Of a stretch of DNA of 64,000 bases, positions 3,019 through 62,230 are shown piece after piece (positions within the stretch are counted from its first letter, which is position 1; every line of letters starts with the position of its first letter). The notes beneath the pieces are model-generated. The model was not told where the DNA came from. It did no database searches and was given only the letters and a program-made list of their open reading frames with translations. The translations under genes and the position numbers were made by a program. This DNA is from Pirellulales bacterium (lineage in GTDB: Bacteria; Planctomycetota; Planctomycetia; Pirellulales; Lacipirellulaceae). The stretch is taken from contig JAHBXQ010000003.1 of assembly GCA_019636345.1 (NCBI GenBank), positions 372,001 to 436,000 of the forward strand, read 5' to 3'.

Positions 3019-7416
<4,398 letters not shown>

Positions 7417-7460
7417 GCGCCGCGGCGATTGCCCGCCCGGTCGCATTCGCAACACCACCC

Positions 7461-7487
7461 GACGGGGGGCCGATTCGGCCCCCCGTC
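7461..7487 (+). terminator. Hairpin terminator after rpoC
   Basis: Perfect 13-bp arms (GACGGGGGGCCGA and its complement) are separated by one base, about 45 bases after the rpoC stop. The stem is very GC-rich but no clear T-tract follows, so termination may be weak or factor-assisted. Confidence 0.65.
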
Positions 7488-7813
7488 GTCGTTGGCGAAT
7501 GCAGGGGCGGCGCGATCGAAGGCGAATCTCGTCGCGGTCGCGGTCCACGAGCCTAGCGGCCGCGACGCCGAACTCGCCGAGTCGCAATCGCTCGCCCTGC
7601 CGACGCTCGTGCCGGGCTTTGCGTTGCCGCTGGCGGACGTCCTTCGCGGGTGAGCCGCATCCCGGAAGGCGCTCGTAGCCCCATTGGGCCGTAACTGGCG
7701 CCAAGCTTCGGGCTTCGGCAACCGCCGGGGCGCGAGGCGGGGCGGAATTTGCCGACGTTGGGTCGAGTCGGCCGGCCGGCTGGAAATCTTCGCTCGCTGG
7801 CCATTTCGCCCAG

Positions 7814-7842
7814 TTGACGCCCTTGGCGGATTGCCCTAAAAT
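7814..7842 (+). promoter_or_regulatory. Predicted promoter of the S10 operon
   Basis: TTGACG (7814-7819) and TAAAAT (7837-7842) are separated by exactly 17 bases, each matching the sigma70 consensus at five of six positions. Transcription would start near 7849, giving an untranslated leader of about 145 bases before rpsJ, long enough for feedback control of the kind known for S10 operons. A second weaker TTGACA lies at 7882 without a good -10 element. Confidence 0.65.
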
Positions 7843-7992
7843 CCGCGGTTCGCCCTCGTATTCGGGGGTCAGTAGGGTTCTTTGACACTTGGGAGTCGGT
7901 CCCGTTGTTCCGTCGATTTCGTCCCGGTTTTCGGGGGGAAGTCGCCGCGAGGCGGGCCGTATTCGACGGGCCGGTGCGCCCTGGAGCGAGTC

Positions 7993-8316
7993 GTGGCATC
8001 TGCGAAGGAAGTCATCAGGATTCGGATGGAGGCGTACGACCACTCGGTGCTCGACCAAAGCGCCGCGGAAATCGTCGATACGGCCAAACGGACCAATTCC
8101 GAAGTTCACGGCCCCATCCCGTTGCCGACCCGGATCGAGCGGTACACCGTTCTGTCCGGTCCCCACGTGGATAAGAAGGCCCGTCAGCAGTTCGAGATTC
8201 GGACCCACAAGCGGCTCATCGACATCGTTCAGGCCACGGCCAAGACGATCGAGGCGCTCAATAAGCTGAGTCTGCCGGCTGGCGTGGATATCAAGATTAA
8301 GGCGACGACGGCCTAA
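7993..8316 (+). CDS. rpsJ: 30S ribosomal protein S10
   Basis: S10 sits in the head of the small subunit and, as NusE, in antitermination complexes. The protein is 107 residues, the usual length, with [18 protein letters not shown] at the start and [19 protein letters not shown] in the middle. A longer frame opens at 7882, but the extra N-terminus is not S10-like. GTG at 7993 is preferred because GGAG lies six bases upstream and the family sequence begins there. It is the first gene of the S10 block, downstream of the 7814 promoter. Confidence 0.97.
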
Positions 8317-8451
8317 CGGGGCGATTGCGGCGATGTCGGCGACTTGTCGGTCGTCGGGATTGCCAGTCGCGATTTATCGGGCTGTCGTCGATTTCATACC
8401 GACCTCAGCGAGTTTTTTCACCGCTATGACTTGGAAGCTCGAAGGGTAAGC

Positions 8452-8465
8452 CGGGGCATGCCCCG
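8452..8465. repeat. 14-base palindrome in rpsJ-rplC spacer
   Basis: CGGGGCATGCCCCG is a perfect palindrome in the 190-base spacer between rpsJ and rplC. It has no T-run and lies inside an operon, so it is more likely a spacer repeat or RNA structure than a terminator. Confidence 0.4.
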
Positions 8466-8506
8466 CGTCTCCCGTCGAGCCCAGCCGATCTCGGGGATCA
8501 CCAGCG

Positions 8507-9208
8507 ATGGCCACGCAAGTGCGCGTTCCAGGCATTCTGGGGCGCAAAATTGGCATGACGCAGATTTACGGCGAAGACGGCGGCGTCGTTCCTGTGACGG
8601 TCGTGCAGGCGGGTCCTTGCCACGTGCTGCAAGTGCGCACGGCGGAACGAGACGGCTACGAAGCGGTCCAGTTGGGGTATCTCGACAAGCCTCGGCGATT
8701 GGCTCGCCGCAGCGAGCGCGGTCATGTCGCCAAGCTTGACAGCAAGGCGGCCAAAAAGCGAACTGCTGCCGGCGTCGAAACGCTCCCCAAGGCTGGGTGC
8801 GAGCCGAAGCGGTTTGTCCGCGAGATTCGCGGCGGCGCCGGCGACCTGGAGGTGGGCGCCGCGGTCGACGTGACCGCCTTCGAGGGGGTTCAGCGGGTCG
8901 ACGTCGTCGCGACCAGCAAGGGTCGCGGCTTCTCGGGCGCCATGAAACGGCACAACTTCAGCGGCCAGCGGGCCACGCACGGCGTCAAGAAATGCCACCG
9001 GGCCCTCGGCGGCACCGGTTGCAGCGCGTTTCCCAGTCGGCTGTTCAAGGGCGTCCGCATGCCGGGGCAATACGGCAACGCTCGTTGCACGGTCCGGAAT
9101 CAGTTGGTGGTCAAGGTCGACTCCGAGCAGAACCTGCTGTTGATCCGAGGCGCCGTCCCCGGCCCCAACGGCGGTTACGTGGTGGTCAAGCAAACGAACA
9201 AAGTGTGA
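8507..9208 (+). CDS. rplC: 50S ribosomal protein L3
   Basis: L3 is an early-assembly 23S rRNA binder whose loop reaches toward the peptidyl transferase centre. The protein is 233 residues against about 209 in E. coli. The N-terminus reads VPGILGRKIGMTQIY, followed by the signature GRGFSGAMKRHNF and the basic loop KGVRMPGQYGN. The start at 8507 matches the family N-terminus. It is the second gene of the S10 operon, after a 190-base spacer. Confidence 0.98.
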   Translation: MATQVRVPGILGRKIGMTQIYGEDGGVVPVTVVQAGPCHVLQVRTAERDGYEAVQLGYLDKPRRLARRSERGHVAKLDSKAAKKRTAAGVETLPKAGCEPKRFVREIRGGAGDLEVGAAVDVTAFEGVQRVDVVATSKGRGFSGAMKRHNFSGQRATHGVKKCHRALGGTGCSAFPSRLFKGVRMPGQYGNARCTVRNQLVVKVDSEQNLLLIRGAVPGPNGGYVVVKQTNKV

Positions 9209-9314
9209 TAAGGGAAGGCCGTCGGCTGTCGAGCGCAGTCTCTTGGCCGGATCGTCATTTTCGATGCATTCGTCCGGCTCACGCCCGGCAGCTTACAGCT
9301 CTTAGCTAGCAATC

Positions 9315-9977
9315 ATGCCCAAGCTTACTGTTCTCGATGCCAAGGGTCACAAGGTCGGCACCTACAATTTGGAGGTGTCCGATCTCGCTCCGCGCATCAA
9401 CAAGCAGCTTCTGCACGACGCGGTGGTCATGTACCAGGCCAACGCCCGGCAGGGGACGCACAAGACCAAGAATCGGCACGAAGTGTCCGGTTCGACCCGC
9501 AAGATGTACAAGCAGAAGGGGACCGGCAACGCCCGGGCCGGCCATCGCAAGAGCGGCATTCGTCGCGGCGGCGGTCACATGAAGCAGATTCATCCGCGGG
9601 ATTACAGCTACTCGTTGCCGCGCAAGGCGTTGCAGTTGGCCACTCGCATGGCCCTGGCCGCCAAGCTGCGGGACGACGAAATCGTGGTCGTCGACAAGCT
9701 GGAGTTCGCCGCCCCGAAGACCCGCGAGATGGCCGGCGTGATCAGGGCCGTCGGTTGCGACGGGGCCTCGGTGCTGGTCGCGACGGCGGCTCACGACGCG
9801 AACGTGTACAAGAGCGCCCGGAACATCGCCAAGGTGGCGATCTCCCCGGCGAGCGATTTGAACGCCCTGAAGCTGCTGTCGGCCCGCAAGGTGCTGGTGA
9901 CGACCGCCGCGTTGGATTACTGGAAGGCCAAGGCCGCCGGCAACGGCAAGGCCGAGGGCGAGTCGTCGGGAGTCTGA
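9315..9977 (+). CDS. rplD: 50S ribosomal protein L4
   Basis: L4 lines the exit tunnel; in enterobacteria it also represses the S10 operon. The protein is 220 residues. The long basic loop (KMYKQKGTGNARAGHRKSG, then RRGGG) that reaches into the tunnel is near residues 60-85. A conserved C-terminal half follows (DLNALKLLSARKVLVT). The gene lies between rplC and rplW in canonical order. The spacer before it ends with AGCTTACAGCTCTTAGCTAGC, related to the repeats in the next three spacers. Confidence 0.97.
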   Translation: MPKLTVLDAKGHKVGTYNLEVSDLAPRINKQLLHDAVVMYQANARQGTHKTKNRHEVSGSTRKMYKQKGTGNARAGHRKSGIRRGGGHMKQIHPRDYSYSLPRKALQLATRMALAAKLRDDEIVVVDKLEFAAPKTREMAGVIRAVGCDGASVLVATAAHDANVYKSARNIAKVAISPASDLNALKLLSARKVLVTTAALDYWKAKAAGNGKAEGESSGV

Positions 9978-55318: not shown

Positions 55319-55807
55319 CTACAACCCTAGCAATTTCGCGGTGGCCAACCAGTGAAGCTCGCCCGAATCCGGTCCGGGGGCTTCCCACAGACTCACCGCG
55401 GCGACCGCCCCTTTGGCGAACCGGAGGTTCGCGTTCCGCCGGCCGATCAGCTCGCCGGCGAGAAAACTCACGTCGGGGGCGTGGCCGACCCAGCACGCCG
55501 AATCGACCTCCAGCGAGCGGGTCCACGCCGTCAGCTCGTCGAAGTCGCTTCCGGGGGCGAGCGCCTCGAGCCGGACGACCTCGGGTTCGTGGGCCGTCCC
55601 GGCGGCGATCAGCTCGGCCGTCTCGACGCACCGGGCGTAGGGGCTCGTGGCGATTGCCTGCGGAGCGAACCCCGCCTCGGCCAGCCGGGCGACGACCCGC
55701 GCGTAGCGCTCTCGCCCTGCTTCTTCGAGCGGTCGCTGCGAATCGTCGGGCCACCGCGGATCGCCGTACTCATAGGCCCAGGCATGCCGGGCGATGTAGA
55801 TGAACAT
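55319..55807 (-). CDS. SixA-like histidine phosphatase
   Basis: The protein is 162 residues. FIYIARHAWAYEYG carries the catalytic RH pair (R7, H8) with alanine replacing the usual glycine, as in SixA. TSPYARCVETAELI has the second arginine, and ACWVGHAPDVSFLAGEL has the second histidine. SixA in E. coli dephosphorylates phosphohistidine in a phosphotransfer protein. The target here is unknown. It lies downstream of the oxidoreductase start on the same strand as its neighbours. Confidence 0.85.
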   Translation of the reverse strand: MFIYIARHAWAYEYGDPRWPDDSQRPLEEAGRERYARVVARLAEAGFAPQAIATSPYARCVETAELIAAGTAHEPEVVRLEALAPGSDFDELTAWTRSLEVDSACWVGHAPDVSFLAGELIGRRNANLRFAKGAVAAVSLWEAPGPDSGELHWLATAKLLGL

Positions 55808-55859: not shown

Positions 55860-57056
55860 TCAGCGATCGCGCCACAAGTCGCGATCCGCGACGCCGAGCC
55901 GTTGTTGCACCGCGGCGATCTCCCGTTTGAAGCGTTTTGCGTCGACCGGATACCCCGCCGTCGGCTTGAGCCCCGGGACGCGCTCCCGCCACCAAGCGTT
56001 GAACTCGTGCATTGCCAGTTCGCGCAGGTACTTGGCCGTCATCGAGGCGAGCGCCGCGGGGAGTTCCGCCTCGCCGCCGACGCGAAACGTCGCCGTGCAG
56101 GACGCGCCGCGATGCGACCAAGCATAGCGACTCGCCGCCCGGCTCTCGCCGTGGATCTCGATCCAACTTTCGGGAAAATGACTTTGCACGAGCGCCGCGT
56201 AGCGATTCCGCCCCCCGTGCTTGTCGCACGTGATGACGATCTCGCCGCGAGCCGGGGCGTCCCCGCCCCCGGCAAACTCGGCGTCCCCGCCCCCGGCGCA
56301 CATCCCCTCCGCCTCGATCGCTTCGTCGACGATCTCCCGCACCAAGGCGAGCGTCACGTGCGACAGCGCCGCCCCTTTCGTGCCGTGCACGTCGACCAAC
56401 GCATTGAACTCCGCGGGAAACACCAGCCGCGCCCGCAGCGAGACGAGCTGCACCCCGGCTTCAAGACACGACGTTCTCAACAGCTCGGCGGCCCCGGCGA
56501 CGTCGTCCCTCGTCGCTTCGAGCGGCAGGGCCAACGCATCCTCGGCATGCCACGGCAACCGCCGCCGCAATTTGTGCGGATCGGCGCCGAGCGATTCCAT
56601 AAGATCGGTCGTGGAGAGCGTCGGCGGACCGGAAGAAGCCGTCCACGCTGCGAGCACGCCGCGCTCAAGCGTCCGCAAGCCGCTCCCCGGCTTGTAGAGC
56701 GCCTTGGAATCGGCGATCGCCACCGGCGGCGCCCCGTCGCCCCGCAGAGCCCGCTCCCCGTTCCGCTTGCGGCTTCGCGCCCCCCGGTCGGAGCCGTCCC
56801 GTGTCACCCCCTCGCGGAGCAACGCGTAGAGATCGACTTCGTCGCGGTGCAGTGCGACGGGCGTTGCGGCGATGGCCGCCGCGGGCGAGGACGCCGCGGC
56901 TCGCGGAGAAGCATGTTTCGAAGTCGGCGTCGTTGCGCGCGACTTGTTGCGAAGCGCATCCCCCATCGCACCGACGCACCACGCCGTCGCCGCGACCGCC
57001 AGCGGTCCCAGATTCGGCCCGTACCCCGCTTCGTCGACCCCGATGAGAATCGTCAT
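55860..57056 (-). CDS. RNase HII-like protein, enlarged
   Basis: The protein is 398 residues from the ATG at 57056. MTILIGVDEAGYGPNLGPLA contains the DEAGxGP(N)LGP block of RNase HII (D8, E9), VAIADSKALYK corresponds to the DSK region, and VITCDKHGGRNRYAALV may carry a further acidic residue. RNase HII is about 200 residues; here large inserts double the size, including a stretch encoded by the GC-rich repeat (AGGGDAEFAGGGDAPARG). It may be a diverged RNase HII specific to planctomycetes; whether it cuts RNA-DNA hybrids is unproven. Confidence 0.7.
   Translation of the reverse strand: MTILIGVDEAGYGPNLGPLAVAATAWCVGAMGDALRNKSRATTPTSKHASPRAAASSPAAAIAATPVALHRDEVDLYALLREGVTRDGSDRGARSRKRNGERALRGDGAPPVAIADSKALYKPGSGLRTLERGVLAAWTASSGPPTLSTTDLMESLGADPHKLRRRLPWHAEDALALPLEATRDDVAGAAELLRTSCLEAGVQLVSLRARLVFPAEFNALVDVHGTKGAALSHVTLALVREIVDEAIEAEGMCAGGGDAEFAGGGDAPARGEIVITCDKHGGRNRYAALVQSHFPESWIEIHGESRAASRYAWSHRGASCTATFRVGGEAELPAALASMTAKYLRELAMHEFNAWWRERVPGLKPTAGYPVDAKRFKREIAAVQQRLGVADRDLWRDR
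56249..56298. repeat. GC-rich dispersed repeat inside the RNase HII-like gene
   Basis: One full inverted copy (CGAGCCGGGGCGTCCCCGCC then CCCGGC, 56249-56274) and one partial copy (GGCGTCCCCGCCCCCGGC, 56281-56298) lie 24 bases apart. They are translated as AGGGDAPAR and AGGGDAEF. The full copy differs from the one at 60551 by a single base. Confidence 0.75.
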
Positions 57057-57080
57057 GCGAGGCAGTATAGCGACCTCGTG

Positions 57081-57103
57081 GTCGATTCTCTCCGAGAATC
57101 GAC
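57081..57103. repeat. Perfect inverted repeat upstream of the RNase HII-like gene
   Basis: GTCGATTCTC and GAGAATCGAC flank TCC. The core TTCTCTCCGAGAATC recurs at 29297 with one end changed. It is located 25 bases before the minus-strand start at 57056. Confidence 0.65.
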
Positions 57104-57236
57104 TGCAATGAGCGGACGGCGCTAGCCGCCGGCGTCGCCACAGCGGAGCCATACCGACCGCCGCAGGGGGGCGTGAAGCGTAACGGAGCGTATCGTACTC
57201 ATGTCGGCGAAAGCGCCGCGAACTTGTCGAAATCCG

Positions 57237-60200
57237 TCAGAAGAACCCGCCCCCGCCTTGGGGCGCGGTCGAGTCGGGCGTGTACGCGGCCTTGTGTTCT
57301 TCGAGGATGAGTTCCCTCGCCTCGTCCGCCTTCAGTTCGGCGTTCCACCCGGTGAGCATCTCGACGCCGACTTGCGTTCGGTCGACGCCGCGCTCGAAGG
57401 CGTCCAGCCAGCAAACGGCCGCTATCGCCGCGACCTGCACTTCGACCGAATCGCTCTCCTCGCCGATTCTCACCAGGGACTCCGCCAGTTTGCTGTCGAA
57501 ATCCGCTCCTCGCGAACCAGACAAGCCCAGCGCTCGCACTAGTGCGACTTGCTTGCGAGGCTCGCTGTCCCCGGCGGCCTCTTGGATGACGCGCTCCGCG
57601 ACCGAGAGATTGTTGCTTTTTCTCGTAGTAGCGCCCATGAGCTGCCGAGCGCGCCGCTGGACCCTTTCATTGGGGTGCGTCAGTCCGGTTATCAAGGCGT
57701 CGAGGTTCGAGTCCGTCAGGGGCATGCCCGAGCCCATGCCGTCGGACCCGAACCCGTGATAACCGGCCGGCGTCGTGAGCAGCCCCAGGGCGAGGATCGC
57801 CTCGTCGGCCTCGTCGCCGGCGAGCAGTTCGTCAAGCAGCGCACGTCCGTGGTCGCTCTGCGACGCGGCCAGCGCCGTCAGCGCCGACGGCCGCAGCGGC
57901 GACTTCCGGTCGCGAGCCCACTCCAGCAGCGTCGCTTGACTCTGTGTGTCGACGTGGCGCAGATGACTGACAAGGACGTCCGTCAACTTGCCCCACTTCT
58001 TCGCATCGCTGCGATACCGCTCGACGAGCGCCGGAAACCAATCTTCCACGGGGAGCTGCGGATCGCCCCCGGCGGTCAGCAGCTCGATGGTCCGATGCTT
58101 CAGCTTCCCGGCGCCGTCGCCGCCCCAAGTGGTGAAGTCGTACTCCCCCGCCACGTCGAGGATCGCCTCGGCCGCCTCGCGCCCCTTGCCGGCTCGGCCG
58201 AACGCCGCCATCGCCTCGATCGCGTCGATTCGCTTCTCGGTTTTCAGTTCGTACCGCCACTTCGAACGCCACTGCTCGAACGTCTGCCCGTCGTACAACA
58301 GCACCTCCCCCTGCAAGCCCGGTCGTCCCCGACCCCGACCCGGGCCTGCGGCGGCATCAAGGGGATCGGCGTACCGCTCCTGCCGGCCATACTCCGGCGC
58401 CGCCTTGCGCGTGATCTGCACGGCGACCTCAGACAGCATCTTCGAAAGCTCCTTCTTCACCGCCGCCTCGGCCTCCTCGACCGTCATCCCCCCCACCGCG
58501 ACGCGGCCGTAAGCCGGCCCGAGAGCGAGTCGGCCTTGCTCGTCGAGCCGATACTCGCCGTCGATCGGCTTGTCAGGAAACGCGCCGAGCACTTGCACCA
58601 CGACCGTTTCGCCCGGTCGCAGCCGCATCGTTTCCGGCGGCAGATCGCCCGAGACGTACGGCGCAGTCGGAACGGGCGCCGCCGTTGTCGCCATTGACGC
58701 TATCTTAGTCGCCGGCGCGCCCACAAGCGGATGCCCAGAGCCCCAGTTCGAGGACGGCTCGCTGGTCGCGGCGTCGGAAATAAAGGGAGAACTGCCAGAC
58801 GGCGCCCAACCCGGCGGAGAAGCCCACGTAGTACGAGCAGCCTCGTGATCCGTCGTCGCCGCCGGCGCGAGCACGCGGAAATCTTTGCGGAACTCCTCGT
58901 CCGACTCTTGCCATTCCTTGCGTTGCTTCTTCGCCGCGGCGAGGAACTTCCGAATAATCGCGTCGAGGGCGCGGCGGTCCTTGTCAGGATCGGGGAATAT
59001 CTGCCGAAACGACAACGTGATTGTGTTACCCTCGGTCGGGATGTAGACGGCAAGCCGACCCTCGAACGGATGGCCGATCGTCGGATCGATTCTGATTCCC
59101 AGCGAGCCGTAATCTTGATACCTCGACAGTTCCTCCCACGCGGAGTGCAGCACTGCTTGGCTCGTCAGAAGTTGCTGCCACTGTCGCAGCGACTCGTTGC
59201 GGGCCTTCGCCGCGTCGTCCGCGGTTGCATCCGGGGCAGCCGGGGCGGCGGGCACGGTCAGATGGACGACCGTTGTCCATCGTTCCATGAGTTCTTGCTG
59301 CCAATCTTGCGGGAGGTACGCGGGCGCCGACGCATAGGGATTGAACGTACTCAGGACCTGCGGGTCTTGCAACGTTACGCTCTCGCCGGCCCGCACCGGT
59401 TTCAGCTCACTCGTCGCTCCGTATGTCTTCGCCATGGGGGCGGCTTGCGATGAGCGCAGCTTTTGCAGTTCGTCCTTCTTCGCCGCGAGTTCCTCGGCCA
59501 GGATTTCTTGCACGCCGACATACTCGTCCGCCAACTCGTCTCGACGGACCTCCATTCGCTCGCTGAAGGTCCGTTCGGCCTTCTCGACCGCAACGGATCT
59601 CTTGGCATTCAATTCCGCTTGCAGTTCGGCGAGTTGCTGCTTGAGTTTCTGCATGCGCTCGACGTGCTGGGCATCGCCAGTTTGCAGGGCCGCGATCTCG
59701 TCGTTGCCGAGGGCTTGCAGGACGAACGAAATGCGACTGCGAAGCATCCCAAGCTCGGCGTCGTCCCCCAGGGCCTGCTTGACTGCGCCGAGCCGCCGGT
59801 CGGCCGACTTGAGTTTCGCCAGCTCGCGGGCCTGTTCGAGCCGACTCTCCAGCAGCCGCTTTTCCAGGTCGACGATCGCCGCCTCGATCCGCGCCTCGTC
59901 GCCGGGGGCGGACGGACGATATCCGCTCGTCGCCGGCTGCGGTCTGTCGACCTGCGTCGGCCACGGGGAAACAGGCTCGACTGTGCTGCCGTACCTTTCG
60001 CCCATCTGCTGGGGCGTCAGCATCGGGTTCGAGGGCAGCGGGATCCCCTCGCCGACCAGTCGGGCCGTCACCCGCGTCCCGGAACCCCCTTGTCGCGACT
60101 CGAACACGAACTTCGCGTTGGAATCTGCCGGCACCGTTGCGATCAGCATCCGCACGACCGTCTCCCGACCGTCCGGGGCCTGGCGAACCCCCTCCTCGAT

Positions 60201-61661
60201 GCGGCACGGAAATCCTTGCGATTCGATATCCCCGAGCAATTGCCGCTCATCGGCCCCGGCGGGCGTCGTGGTACGGATTTCTTTGGTCCGAGATAATGGG
60301 TCTAGATCCGTCGCTAGAGTATATCGGTCCTGAGCCGCAGGCTGAGAAACGGTGGTTTGTGCTTGTCCTTCCACGGCGATCGCCTTCTGCGACACGGCCG
60401 TCAACGACACGACGCCTGCAGCAGTTGCCGCCAGCGCCGCGCCGACGACGCATACCGTACTCCGTGAAACTCGCATCGATTCGCGCTCCACATTGAGGAT
60501 GCGCCGCACCCGCGACGCGAGGGGATGATTGGCCATCGCACTTGCCGCAGCGAGCCGGGGCGTCCTCGCCCCCGGCGCGCGCCGCTTCGCCGCCAGCGTC
60601 ACCAACAAGTCCGCATACTCGACCGGTCGCCCGGTGAGCCCGACCACGATCGCGTCGCAGCACTCCTCGCGATCGCGGCGCACCTGCCGGCTCGCCAACC
60701 ACACGGCCGGGTGGAACCACAGGCACGACTCGACCACCCGCTGGGCGAGGTTGACCGCATTGTCCCAGCGGCGGACGTGGGCCAGTTCGTGGACGAGCGC
60801 CAGCTCGAGATCCTCGGGGCCCCACCCCGTGACCGCCGCGGCCGGCAGCAGCACGAGCGGGCGGACAATCCCCACGAGCACCGGTTGGGCGATCGCATCG
60901 CTGGCCGCGACGGCGACCTGGCGCGAGATCCGCAGCGCCGCGCGAATCCGCTCGGCCGCGGCCACGATCGGCCCGTCGCTCACCGGAACGGCGTTTCGTC
61001 GCAATCGTTGGGCGCCAGTCAGCCCGAGGGCAAGCCACGCAAAGGTGACGGGCGCCCCGACGAGCCACGCCCAAGGCAAGTGCGCAACGGCCCCGTCGAG
61101 GAGCGTGTGCCAAAACGCGCCGCTCGCGCCCCCGTCGCCGTCTGCGACGAGTTGCGGCGCACTCGGAACCGGCCCGCCCCCCGCTGGCGGCTTAGCGGGC
61201 TGGGCGCCCGACGCCTCGTTCCAAGTCGCCGCCTCCGACGTCGTCGTCTCCCAATCCCCCGCAGGCGTCGGCTTGCCTGCCACGAACGGCGTCTCTTTGA
61301 GATCGATCACCCGCGGCGGCGCGCTCGGCGCCGGCGCGGGCGCAAAGGAGGGAACCCAGTTCGCGGCGTCGGCGAAGACGGCCCCAGCGGGGCTCGCCAT
61401 GGGATGTGCGCCGGGGGCGGGGAGGCCTCGGCTCGCAGGGCCGTCATGTGTTGCGAGCCATGCGGCGATGGCGATTGGCGCCATCGACAAGCCGGCGAGC
61501 GTCGCCAGCGACGCGGCGTACCGCACGCCGGGGGCTGCCCGTCGCAAGGCGAGCCGCAACGTCGCCCCGACCGCCGCGACGAGCGCTCCGATCCACAACG
61601 AGTGGATCATCGTCCAACCCGCGAGCCGCCATAACGATTCCCCGACGATTGGCAAGTTCAT
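57237..61661 (-). CDS. BlaR-like M56 peptidase with coiled coil, polysaccharide-export-like domain and HEAT-like repeats
   Basis: The protein is 1474 residues, more than twice BlaR1. Membrane helices are near 12-38, 48-69, 195-218 and 400-422. The M56 zinc motif HELAH is at 291-295, with REECCDA (331-337) as the third-ligand region. Residues 585-740 are a charged coiled coil. Residues 1008-1086 (MRLRPGETVVVQVLGAFPDK, EYRLDEQGRLALG, MTVEEAEAAVKKEL) resemble the Poly_export domain of Wza-like proteins. Residues 1130-1430 look like HEAT repeats. It lies 83 bases after a BlaI-type gene, so the pair should act as sensor protease and repressor. The inducer is unknown. Two copies of the GC-rich repeat are translated within it. 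Confidence 0.82.
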   Translation of the reverse strand: MNLPIVGESLWRLAGWTMIHSLWIGALVAAVGATLRLALRRAAPGVRYAASLATLAGLSMAPIAIAAWLATHDGPASRGLPAPGAHPMASPAGAVFADAANWVPSFAPAPAPSAPPRVIDLKETPFVAGKPTPAGDWETTTSEAATWNEASGAQPAKPPAGGGPVPSAPQLVADGDGGASGAFWHTLLDGAVAHLPWAWLVGAPVTFAWLALGLTGAQRLRRNAVPVSDGPIVAAAERIRAALRISRQVAVAASDAIAQPVLVGIVRPLVLLPAAAVTGWGPEDLELALVHELAHVRRWDNAVNLAQRVVESCLWFHPAVWLASRQVRRDREECCDAIVVGLTGRPVEYADLLVTLAAKRRAPGARTPRLAAASAMANHPLASRVRRILNVERESMRVSRSTVCVVGAALAATAAGVVSLTAVSQKAIAVEGQAQTTVSQPAAQDRYTLATDLDPLSRTKEIRTTTPAGADERQLLGDIESQGFPCRIEEGVRQAPDGRETVVRMLIATVPADSNAKFVFESRQGGSGTRVTARLVGEGIPLPSNPMLTPQQMGERYGSTVEPVSPWPTQVDRPQPATSGYRPSAPGDEARIEAAIVDLEKRLLESRLEQARELAKLKSADRRLGAVKQALGDDAELGMLRSRISFVLQALGNDEIAALQTGDAQHVERMQKLKQQLAELQAELNAKRSVAVEKAERTFSERMEVRRDELADEYVGVQEILAEELAAKKDELQKLRSSQAAPMAKTYGATSELKPVRAGESVTLQDPQVLSTFNPYASAPAYLPQDWQQELMERWTTVVHLTVPAAPAAPDATADDAAKARNESLRQWQQLLTSQAVLHSAWEELSRYQDYGSLGIRIDPTIGHPFEGRLAVYIPTEGNTITLSFRQIFPDPDKDRRALDAIIRKFLAAAKKQRKEWQESDEEFRKDFRVLAPAATTDHEAARTTWASPPGWAPSGSSPFISDAATSEPSSNWGSGHPLVGAPATKIASMATTAAPVPTAPYVSGDLPPETMRLRPGETVVVQVLGAFPDKPIDGEYRLDEQGRLALGPAYGRVAVGGMTVEEAEAAVKKELSKMLSEVAVQITRKAAPEYGRQERYADPLDAAAGPGRGRGRPGLQGEVLLYDGQTFEQWRSKWRYELKTEKRIDAIEAMAAFGRAGKGREAAEAILDVAGEYDFTTWGGDGAGKLKHRTIELLTAGGDPQLPVEDWFPALVERYRSDAKKWGKLTDVLVSHLRHVDTQSQATLLEWARDRKSPLRPSALTALAASQSDHGRALLDELLAGDEADEAILALGLLTTPAGYHGFGSDGMGSGMPLTDSNLDALITGLTHPNERVQRRARQLMGATTRKSNNLSVAERVIQEAAGDSEPRKQVALVRALGLSGSRGADFDSKLAESLVRIGEESDSVEVQVAAIAAVCWLDAFERGVDRTQVGVEMLTGWNAELKADEARELILEEHKAAYTPDSTAPQGGGGFF
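60551..60576. repeat. GC-rich dispersed repeat inside the M56 gene, copy A
   Basis: CGAGCCGGGGCGTCCTCGCC then CCCGGC. On the coding strand it is translated as APGARTPRL near residues 362-370, in a frame different from that used in the RNase HII-like gene. Confidence 0.75.
61410..61435. repeat. GC-rich dispersed repeat inside the M56 gene, copy B
   Basis: GCCGGGGGCGGGGAGGCCTC then GGCTCG, opposite in orientation to copy A and two bases different from the 56249 copy. It is translated as ASRGLPAPGA near residues 76-85, in the linker after helix 2. Confidence 0.7.
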
Positions 61662-61744
61662 AACGCAGGACCTTGTTCAGCGAGAGTTGGAGAAGTCGTC
61701 TGTTCCCGTCAGGGCGTCGTCAGATCCCAATCCGCGCGAGCCGC

Positions 61745-62146
61745 TCACCTAGTTCGTCCTCGCTTCGTGTCCGGCGCCGCGTCGATCAGCGCGCGGAGCT
61801 CGGCGAGCTGATCCGCGCTCAGCGCCCCCCCTTCGACGAGGTGGGCGACCAGCCGATCGGCCGCGCCGCTGAAGACGCGCTCGACGAGTCGATCGACGAT
61901 CCGCCGCTCGGTCTTCTGCTGCGTGACGACGGCCGACCACACCGCGCCGCGGCCGCTGCCGGTCCGCTTCACCAGCCGTTTGTCGGCCATCAACCGCAGC
62001 ATGGTGGCGACGGTGGTCGTGGCGACCTCGCGGTCGCGACGAATCGTTTCGCACAGCTCGCTCAGCGCGATCGGCCCGGCGGACCAGAGGACGCGCAGGA
62101 TTTCGAGTTCGCCGTCGGTCGGCTGTTCGCTGGGGGGGCGGGACAT
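61745..62146 (-). CDS. BlaI/MecI-family transcriptional repressor
   Basis: The protein is 133 residues. The winged-helix N-domain reads PTDGELEILRVLWSAGPIAL, then REVATTTVATMLRLMADKRL, the classic BlaI recognition region; the C-terminal dimer domain follows (RLVAHLVEGGALSADQLAEL). In Staphylococcus and Bacillus such repressors are cut after signalling by an M56 peptidase, and an M56 gene follows here. A palindrome overlapping its own promoter is the likely operator. The beta-lactam link of the namesakes should not be assumed. Confidence 0.92.
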   Translation of the reverse strand: MSRPPSEQPTDGELEILRVLWSAGPIALSELCETIRRDREVATTTVATMLRLMADKRLVKRTGSGRGAVWSAVVTQQKTERRIVDRLVERVFSGAADRLVAHLVEGGALSADQLAELRALIDAAPDTKRGRTR

Positions 62147-62200
62147 GAGGGGCTCCGGAAGTCGATGCGGTCGGGCGCCGTGCGCGGCCCCGACGCCTGA

Positions 62201-62230
62201 ATTCTAACGAATTAGAACAATCGGAATCAA
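62201..62230 (-). promoter_or_regulatory. Promoter and palindromic operator of the BlaI-M56 pair
   Basis: On the minus strand TTGATT (62225-62230) and TAGAAT (62201-62206) are 18 bases apart. The palindrome TTCTAATTCGTTAGAA (62202-62217) has 6-bp arms and overlaps the -10 element and the spacer. The start codon lies about 55 bases downstream. This is the arrangement expected for an autoregulated repressor gene. Confidence 0.65.

Follow-up and report, generated by a model that had tools for sequence, protein, structure and literature searches.

A candidate BlaR1-type receptor of Pirellulales with a helical repeat domain and exchangeable modules in place of the penicillin-binding sensor

The window analysed here, a stretch of 64,000 nucleotides from a Pirellulales bacterium of the family Lacipirellulaceae (assembly GCA_019636345.1, contig JAHBXQ010000003.1, positions 372,001 to 436,000; genome of 5.18 Mb in 15 contigs), encodes a BlaI-type repressor and, 83 bases downstream, an M56 metalloprotease of 1474 residues. 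We favour, with moderate confidence, reading the pair as a BlaR1-type transmembrane receptor and its repressor, in which the sensor is new, consisting of a solenoid core and an exchangeable middle part, and which controls its own operon. The genes and the features of the protease part are:

61745-62146, minus strand: BlaI-type repressor gene, 133 residues (Pfam Penicillinase_R, PF03965)
57237-61661, minus strand: M56 metalloprotease receptor gene, 1474 residues (open reading frame call and Pfam)
60504-61085, minus strand: Peptidase_M56 domain, residues 193-386 (Pfam)
60777-60791, minus strand: HELAH zinc-binding motif, residues 291-295 (sequence, alignment)
60402-60458, minus strand: last membrane helix, residues 402-420 (hydropathy 2.05)

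Both proteins belong to the families named. Penicillinase_R scores 90.5 bits on the repressor (cut-off 22.6), which also resembles the MecI/BlaI chains 1sd6, 1okr and 1sd4, and Peptidase_M56 (PF05569) matches the receptor at 5.9e-33 (114.7 bits, cut-off 31). A first-pass annotation, made from the letters of the sequence, had singled out the HELAH motif, the M56 domain and the BlaI-type gene 83 bases away, and coordinates and Pfam bear all three out. The two gluzincin motifs are present, HEXXH as H291, E292 and H295, and EXXXD as E332 and D336; H291, E292, H295, D300, E332, D336 and Y349 are invariant in an alignment of the 20 syntenic sequences defined below. The zinc surroundings of BlaR1 comprise H201EXXH, E242XXXD, Asp210 and Tyr261 (PMC9834060), and the first six of our residues are spaced as in BlaR1 in 20/20 sequences. 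Searches of solved structures gave weak best BlaR1 matches, both for the whole protein (E value 0.81, beside an EF-hand protein at 0.67) and for its first 408 residues (0.21), and the NCBIfam model blaR1_generic reached 91.5 bits against a cut-off of 400, the protease part alone being matched. As to a penicillin-binding sensor, Pfam found no transpeptidase family in the protein up to E 1. A beta-lactam sensor was considered and rejected, the Pfam and NCBIfam scans having yielded no such domain.

At a hydropathy threshold of 1.5, residues 13-39, 52-70 and 402-420 stand out as membrane stretches, and stretches at 248-279, within the protease domain, also exceed it. The third helix, at about 195-215, falls below the threshold yet is a conserved hydrophobic stretch across homologues. 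The four membrane helices noted earlier, three by hydropathy and the fourth by alignment, are accordingly likely rather than proven. BlaR1 itself is a domain-swapped dimer with both termini outside, its M56 active site lies on the cytoplasmic side, and it cuts BlaI directly at the Asn101/Phe102 bond (PMC9834060). If the window receptor shares the orientation of its homologue, its large C-terminal part would lie outside the cytoplasm; BlaR1 homology (N-out, C-out; PMC9834060) is thus what speaks for the extracytoplasmic placement that the annotation had assumed.

The part beyond the last helix contains the following:

59427-59909, minus strand: probable coiled coil, residues 585-745 (sequence by eye; weak hidden Markov model matches to coiled-coil-rich families)
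58917-59225, minus strand: possible Wzz-like (chain-length determinant) segment, residues 813-915 (mixed profile)
58410-58637, minus strand: Poly_export (Wza PES) domain, residues 1009-1084 (Pfam and structure match)
57282-58319, minus strand: YDGxTFxxWR motif and HEAT-like alpha-solenoid, about residues 1115-1460 (alignment, model m9f11a75b10b0, Foldseek)
57237-57257, minus strand: C-terminal GGGGFF tail and stop codon (codon pattern, once in the genome)

Modelling predicts a HEAT-like alpha-solenoid for the C-terminal part. For residues 1093-1474, with a four-sequence alignment, AlphaFold predicts an all-helical solenoid (mean predicted local distance difference test, pLDDT, 79.5; predicted template modelling score, pTM, 0.74) with disordered start and tail. 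Among the Foldseek matches listed most are of ARM/HEAT type, the best being designed repeat proteins, importin-alpha and alphaRep, with E values down to 3.4e-5 and low TM-scores (0.2-0.33 by query length). Pfam places HEAT_2 below its cut-off in the window protein (16.3 against 27.7) and above it in 6/19 other syntenic loci. The HEAT-like repeats to the end of the protein, first noticed by eye, thus have their counterpart in the model and its matches, with Pfam below cut-off here. The alignment of this region opens with a conserved LYDGKTFxxWR motif. For the probable coiled coil, which the first-pass annotation had put at residues 585-740, weak matches to coiled-coil-rich families speak.

The Poly_export domain is recognised by Pfam at 5.7e-9 (36.5 bits, cut-off 28). 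Residues 755-1095, modelled without an alignment, have a pLDDT of 44, and the Poly_export part alone is usable; over 73-82 residues it matches nine Wza/WzaB entries, including Myxococcus xanthus WzaB, at Z 8.2-10.8, the next match listed standing at Z 5.0. What had been called a segment resembling Wza is therefore a real domain, and structure prediction returns both folds, Poly_export and HEAT, on which the annotation had staked its reading. Pfam detects no SLBB domain in the protein up to E 1. The Wzz-like segment is called possible because the evidence for it is partly circular: its 13.5 bits (best shuffle 4.8) and 70% in hhalign come from a profile that includes three M56 segments picked by eye. 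On a profile of Wzz proteins alone it scores 1.1 bits (best shuffle 3.1), and hhalign with that profile gives it 1%, below two solenoid segments (5-7%). Full-length planctomycete Wzz profiles under default filters matched none of the homologues; with the domain-level Wzz-only profile 5/20 loci exceed the 3.1 bits of the best control (L091 at 22.4, L093 at 13.3, L109 at 11.8, L102 at 9.6 and L105 at 6.9). Residues 561-980 (420 residues), searched against 196 genomes of the order, met one weak match besides the window (E 4.9e-4, one genome), so most of the window's middle appears to have no close relative there.

Comparison of homologous loci separates constant from variable parts. The whole protein found matches in 125 of the order's 196 genomes; 31 genome stretches were fetched, including one from the genome of the window, plus L004. 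Twenty loci in which the protease and the C-terminal region occur together were taken as syntenic: the window, L091-L100, L102, L104-L110 and L004, the last counted as a single locus despite its interrupted gene. Loci cut by contig ends (L101, L103), L113, whose protease and C-terminal part are split between two frames that overlap, and M56 loci without a C-terminal region match (L111, L112, L114-L121) were dropped before counting. Start codons were chosen mechanically, and the BlaI and M56 frames overlap in some loci. The BlaI gene stands directly before the M56 gene in 20/20 syntenic loci and in 10/11 of the other M56 loci fetched, the eleventh being cut by a contig end, which makes 30/31 loci counted.

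The C-terminal region is found in all 20, and the middle varies. A PDZ-like domain occurs in every locus but the window and L097, which makes 18; Poly_export occurs in three (the window, L102, L107), thioredoxin above cut-off in L100, and DUF1559/SBP_bac_10 in L108. The term PDZ-like rests on a motif and on weak matches, all eight of those listed being of DegP/DegQ type (E 0.02-0.07); Pfam leaves the domain unnamed. Among their carriers, the PDZ-like and Poly_export modules show good sequence conservation. L102 combines Poly_export (40.6 bits, Pfam) with a Wzz-like segment (9.6 bits with the Wzz-only profile, best shuffle 3.1), and in L097, at 740 residues, the protease is joined almost directly to the C-terminal region, with no middle module recognised. 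Since Poly_export is optional and L097 has no recognised middle, the solenoid is the candidate for the constant sensor. In L004, the nearest relative of the window, the residues APYVSGD run straight into the C-terminal motif, and in the window the Poly_export domain comes next, as if this domain had been gained or lost in one piece. When the C-terminal profile was run on ten sampled genomes of the family, E values below 1e-90 appeared in five, one match each, four at M56 loci forming rows of the profile and the fifth in the second genome of the same genus; other matches were weak (E 4.9e-11 or worse), and two of the ten genomes had none.

Two loci call for separate mention. The M56 gene of L004 is split by an in-frame TAG (8563-8565) into a protease part and a solenoid part, from decay, sequence error or a real two-gene form. 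The middle of the L108 protein (5038-9357) matches DUF1559 (SBP_bac_10), and the kinase fusion L203, described below, also has DUF1559 along with Poly_export.

Upstream of blaI lie two further elements:

62202-62217, minus strand: putative BlaI operator TTCTAATTCGTTAGAA, 55 bases before the blaI start codon (sequence)
62201-62230, minus strand: putative sigma-70 promoter, with -35 TTGATT (62230-62225), an 18-base spacer and -10 TAGAAT (62206-62201)

The putative operator overlaps the last part of the spacer and the greater part of the -10 box. The pattern TTCTAATTCKTTAGAA, allowed two mismatches at most, has one site in the 5.18 Mb genome, before blaI; allowed one at most, it has 30 sites in 28 of 43 family genomes, where a reversed control pattern has two. 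Of the 30 sites, 27 are closely followed by a BlaI coding sequence in the same orientation, the first matched residue lying 15-91 bases past the site, and the remaining three carry one mismatch each. TTGAC or TTGAT stands at about the same distance at 24/30 sites (counted by eye), and all 20 syntenic loci have the palindrome with at most one mismatch. The search was limited to one or two mismatches, and more degenerate sites would escape it. From the single genomic site and the 27/30 sites before blaI, the circuit seems to control its own operon alone; read most simply, each genome would have a single putative operator, through which the operon regulates itself, and no further genes under its control. 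The source genome has one further M56 match, with its own BlaI (L121, 7611-8027 and 8067-10922); this second pair carries a carboxypeptidase-regulatory-like domain, and a different palindrome, TCTACTGGCTGACCAGTAGA, precedes its blaI.

The history of the modules was followed on a tree that joins 27 protease domains: those of the 20 syntenic loci, of six other M56 proteins and of L205. Its four Poly_export carriers need four changes, every one of them forced by starred branches; none of the three syntenic carriers has a nearest relative with the domain, and the Poly_export label is no more clustered than in shuffles (500/500 as low). The PDZ-like domain needs two changes and the Wzz-like segment five. 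Such counts do not separate gain from loss, and L121, L205 and L120 sit on long branches. The Poly_export copy of the window is nearest to that of a fusion with an extracytoplasmic function (ECF) sigma factor (55%), that of L102 to the copy of a kinase fusion (56%) and that of L107 to the copy of a short protein (57%), and these different nearest copies suggest separate captures, though an approximately unbiased (AU) test does not reject a single M56 Poly_export clade (p 0.54; 85 columns).

Poly_export domains also occur in other signalling proteins. A profile of the three M56 copies, run over 396 genomes, matches in 215 at 1e-8, with many of the matches listed in frames of about 350-500 residues. 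Eleven long frames were examined, nine of them with Pfam, which put Poly_export above its cut-off in all nine: together with Ser/Thr protein kinase domains in three (L203, L209, L211), with sigma-70 regions 2 and 4 of ECF type in four (L204, L207, L208, L210) and with M56 in two (L205, L206). L212 is called an M56 protein by its likeness to L206, its Poly_export matches being weaker, and L213 looks like an ordinary export protein; as the frames were picked for length, ten signalling proteins among eleven is not a frequency. BlaI genes adjoin L205, L206 and L212. In L205, which belongs to another family, M56, Poly_export and HEAT_2 all exceed their cut-offs, with YDGKTF preceding the repeats, so at least one protein outside the family repeats the domain set of the window protein. 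In the ECF fusions a hydrophobic, membrane-like stretch that separates the sigma-factor and Poly_export parts can be seen by eye, and from such stretches the Poly_export parts of the fusions would be expected outside the cytoplasm.

Planctomycete ECF sigma factors with WD40 repeats have been described (PMC8567305), and Poly_export-sigma-factor fusions may be described already; a word search of PMC8999054 and PMC8103513 did not find "polysaccharide". One survey of outer-membrane polysaccharide export (OPX) proteins was restricted to proteins in polysaccharide clusters (PMC9601211) and another scanned with four Pfam domains only (PMC9603273); neither was designed in a way that would reveal the Wza PES domain in signalling proteins, a wider use to which the present fusions point.

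Downstream of the receptor gene lie two possible members of the operon:

55860-57152, minus strand: RNase HII-like gene, possible operon member, 84 bases downstream of the M56 gene (Pfam RNase_HII)
55319-55807, minus strand: histidine phosphatase gene, possible operon member (Pfam His_Phos_1, 35.3 bits; synteny)

RNase_HII matches a short stretch at 28.4 bits (cut-off 25.8). An RNase HII-like gene lies downstream of the receptor in 11/20 syntenic loci, and both genes are present in about half of the 20. Among the four neighbours scanned with Pfam (RNase HII-like, histidine phosphatase, amine oxidoreductase and CBM9-like, the last a carbohydrate-binding family) there is no gene of polysaccharide synthesis or export and no beta-lactamase or PBP2a (penicillin-binding protein 2a) gene; the four Wzz matches of the genome are all on contigs other than the receptor's. 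The RNase HII-like protein is 430 residues long, its Pfam match short and N-terminal, and the order RNase HII-like, histidine phosphatase, amine oxidoreductase-like is kept after the receptor in several relatives.

The mechanism that we propose builds on domains, active-site residues, gene order, palindrome and exchange of the middle as read from sequence or model, and borrows its topology and the inactivation of BlaI by cleavage from BlaR1. The M56 gluzincin, probably with four membrane helices, would face the cytoplasm, and the C-terminal two thirds of the protein would lie outside the inner membrane. Engagement or disturbance of this outer part would lead the protease to inactivate the BlaI-type repressor bound over the blaI-m56 promoter, raising synthesis of the pair and of any co-transcribed genes, such as those for the RNase HII-like protein and the histidine phosphatase. 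The HEAT-like solenoid, often extended by a glycine-rich tail whose last residue is Phe, would serve as constant core sensor or docking surface, and the middle (PDZ-like, Poly_export, Wzz-like, thioredoxin or none), exchanged between lineages, would adapt the receptor to partners in the envelope; the Wza PES domain of the window may dock on a polysaccharide export complex or mimic a subunit of it. We infer the binding of BlaI to the palindrome, its proteolysis, sensing by the solenoid, the signal and the ligand; the contact of Poly_export with export complexes would be the weakest step.

Several observations weigh against this proposal. The scissile Asn-Phe of Staphylococcus aureus BlaI aligns to His-Leu in the window and its syntenic homologues, so the dipeptide does not support cleavage at that place (the BlaI of five other M56 loci, L115 and L117-L120, has Asn-Leu there). 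The solenoid is weakly conserved, with a mean identity of 28% and its invariant and nearly invariant columns confined to positions 1-82 of the C-terminal alignment, a pattern that seems unlike that of a dedicated ligand pocket, and the glycine-rich tail ending in Phe is present in only 10/20 syntenic loci. The palindrome at one mismatch is missing from 15/43 family genomes, counted irrespective of whether the locus is present. No RNase HII-like gene was found after the receptor in 9/20 loci, in one of which the contig stops immediately; the output may thus be something other than these downstream genes.

The missing dipeptide also fits a different view: BlaI would simply repress its own operon, the M56 protein would be a protease of membrane quality control that acts on other substrates, and the two would share an operon only to set the dose. 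The PDZ-like modules of 18/20 loci, with their weak matches to DegP/DegQ, and a palindrome found only before the operon itself would suit this view. We nevertheless think this unlikely, as the active site of BlaR1 faces the cytoplasm, where BlaI is (PMC9834060), and BlaI accompanies M56 in 30/31 loci counted.

The first-pass annotation had suggested that envelope polysaccharide or mechanical state is perhaps sensed, and the sharpest form of that idea would make Poly_export itself the sensor, gauging the state of polysaccharide export. The PES fold is genuine by Pfam and structure match, the domain recurs in other signalling proteins of the order, and L102 joins Poly_export to a Wzz-like segment, counterparts of the two partners in the export machine. 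Sensing of polysaccharide is possible; but a domain carried by 3/20 syntenic loci, and lacking in the nearest M56-tree relative of each carrier, is not supported as the part that defines the signal of the receptor, no SLBB match accompanies it, and the four neighbours scanned are not genes of polysaccharide synthesis or export (one is CBM9-like), so that we regard Poly_export as the sensor with considerable doubt. The fast turnover of the middle, down to its near absence in L097, would be expected if the modules were neutral insertions into a tolerant linker with no role in sensing; this we find very improbable, given that PDZ-like and Poly_export sequences are well conserved between carriers and that the Poly_export part still models as a Wza fold.

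We thus return to the receptor with a solenoid core and an exchangeable middle. A bolder version, which we offer as speculation and would not expect to hold, makes the Wza PES domain a general envelope-sensing module of planctomycetes, passed among M56-BlaI receptors, ECF sigma factors and Ser/Thr kinases, that docks into the export ring and so reports on the export of polysaccharide. The M56 receptor would then form a circuit complete in itself, with one operator and a sensor that each lineage assembles anew from parts of envelope machines. Because the variable and constant parts and the single operator-like site can be read from the sequence, stimulus and output can be put to the test.

The systems most like this one are BlaR1/MecR1-BlaI/MecI of Staphylococcus aureus and Bacillus licheniformis, which share the M56 gluzincin with the same active-site residues, the adjacent BlaI-type repressor, the palindrome over the operon promoter and, by analogy, a large C-terminal part expected outside. 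Unlike them, the window receptor has no penicillin-binding sensor and, among the four neighbours scanned, no beta-lactamase or PBP2a gene; its C-terminal part exceeds 1000 residues, with HEAT-like, Poly_export and other modules, and its BlaI has His-Leu in place of the Asn-Phe cleavage site. With the Wza/OPX export proteins it shares the PES (Poly_export) domain, by sequence and fold. OPX proteins have one or more SLBB domains after Poly_export (PMC9603273), whereas the window protein has no SLBB match, is tethered to the inner membrane by M56, and is not beside polysaccharide synthesis or export genes among those four neighbours. The planctomycete ECF sigma factors and Ser/Thr kinases (L203, L204, L207-L211) are likewise signalling proteins with one or more Poly_export domains, but their effector is a sigma factor or kinase and that of the window a protease-repressor pair. 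Among the matches listed in the open-licence literature, judged by title and opening of the abstract, there is no M56 receptor with Poly_export or HEAT domains, in agreement with the earlier remark that no system with this domain set is known to have been described, and the protease-repressor architecture with another sensor replacing the penicillin-binding domain is supported. BlaR1 has been studied as an antibiotic sensor, and the same protease-repressor logic appears here with an unrelated, exchangeable one: the protease-repressor kind is already known, and what is new is a BlaR1-type protease whose sensor is replaced by a helical repeat domain and exchangeable pieces.

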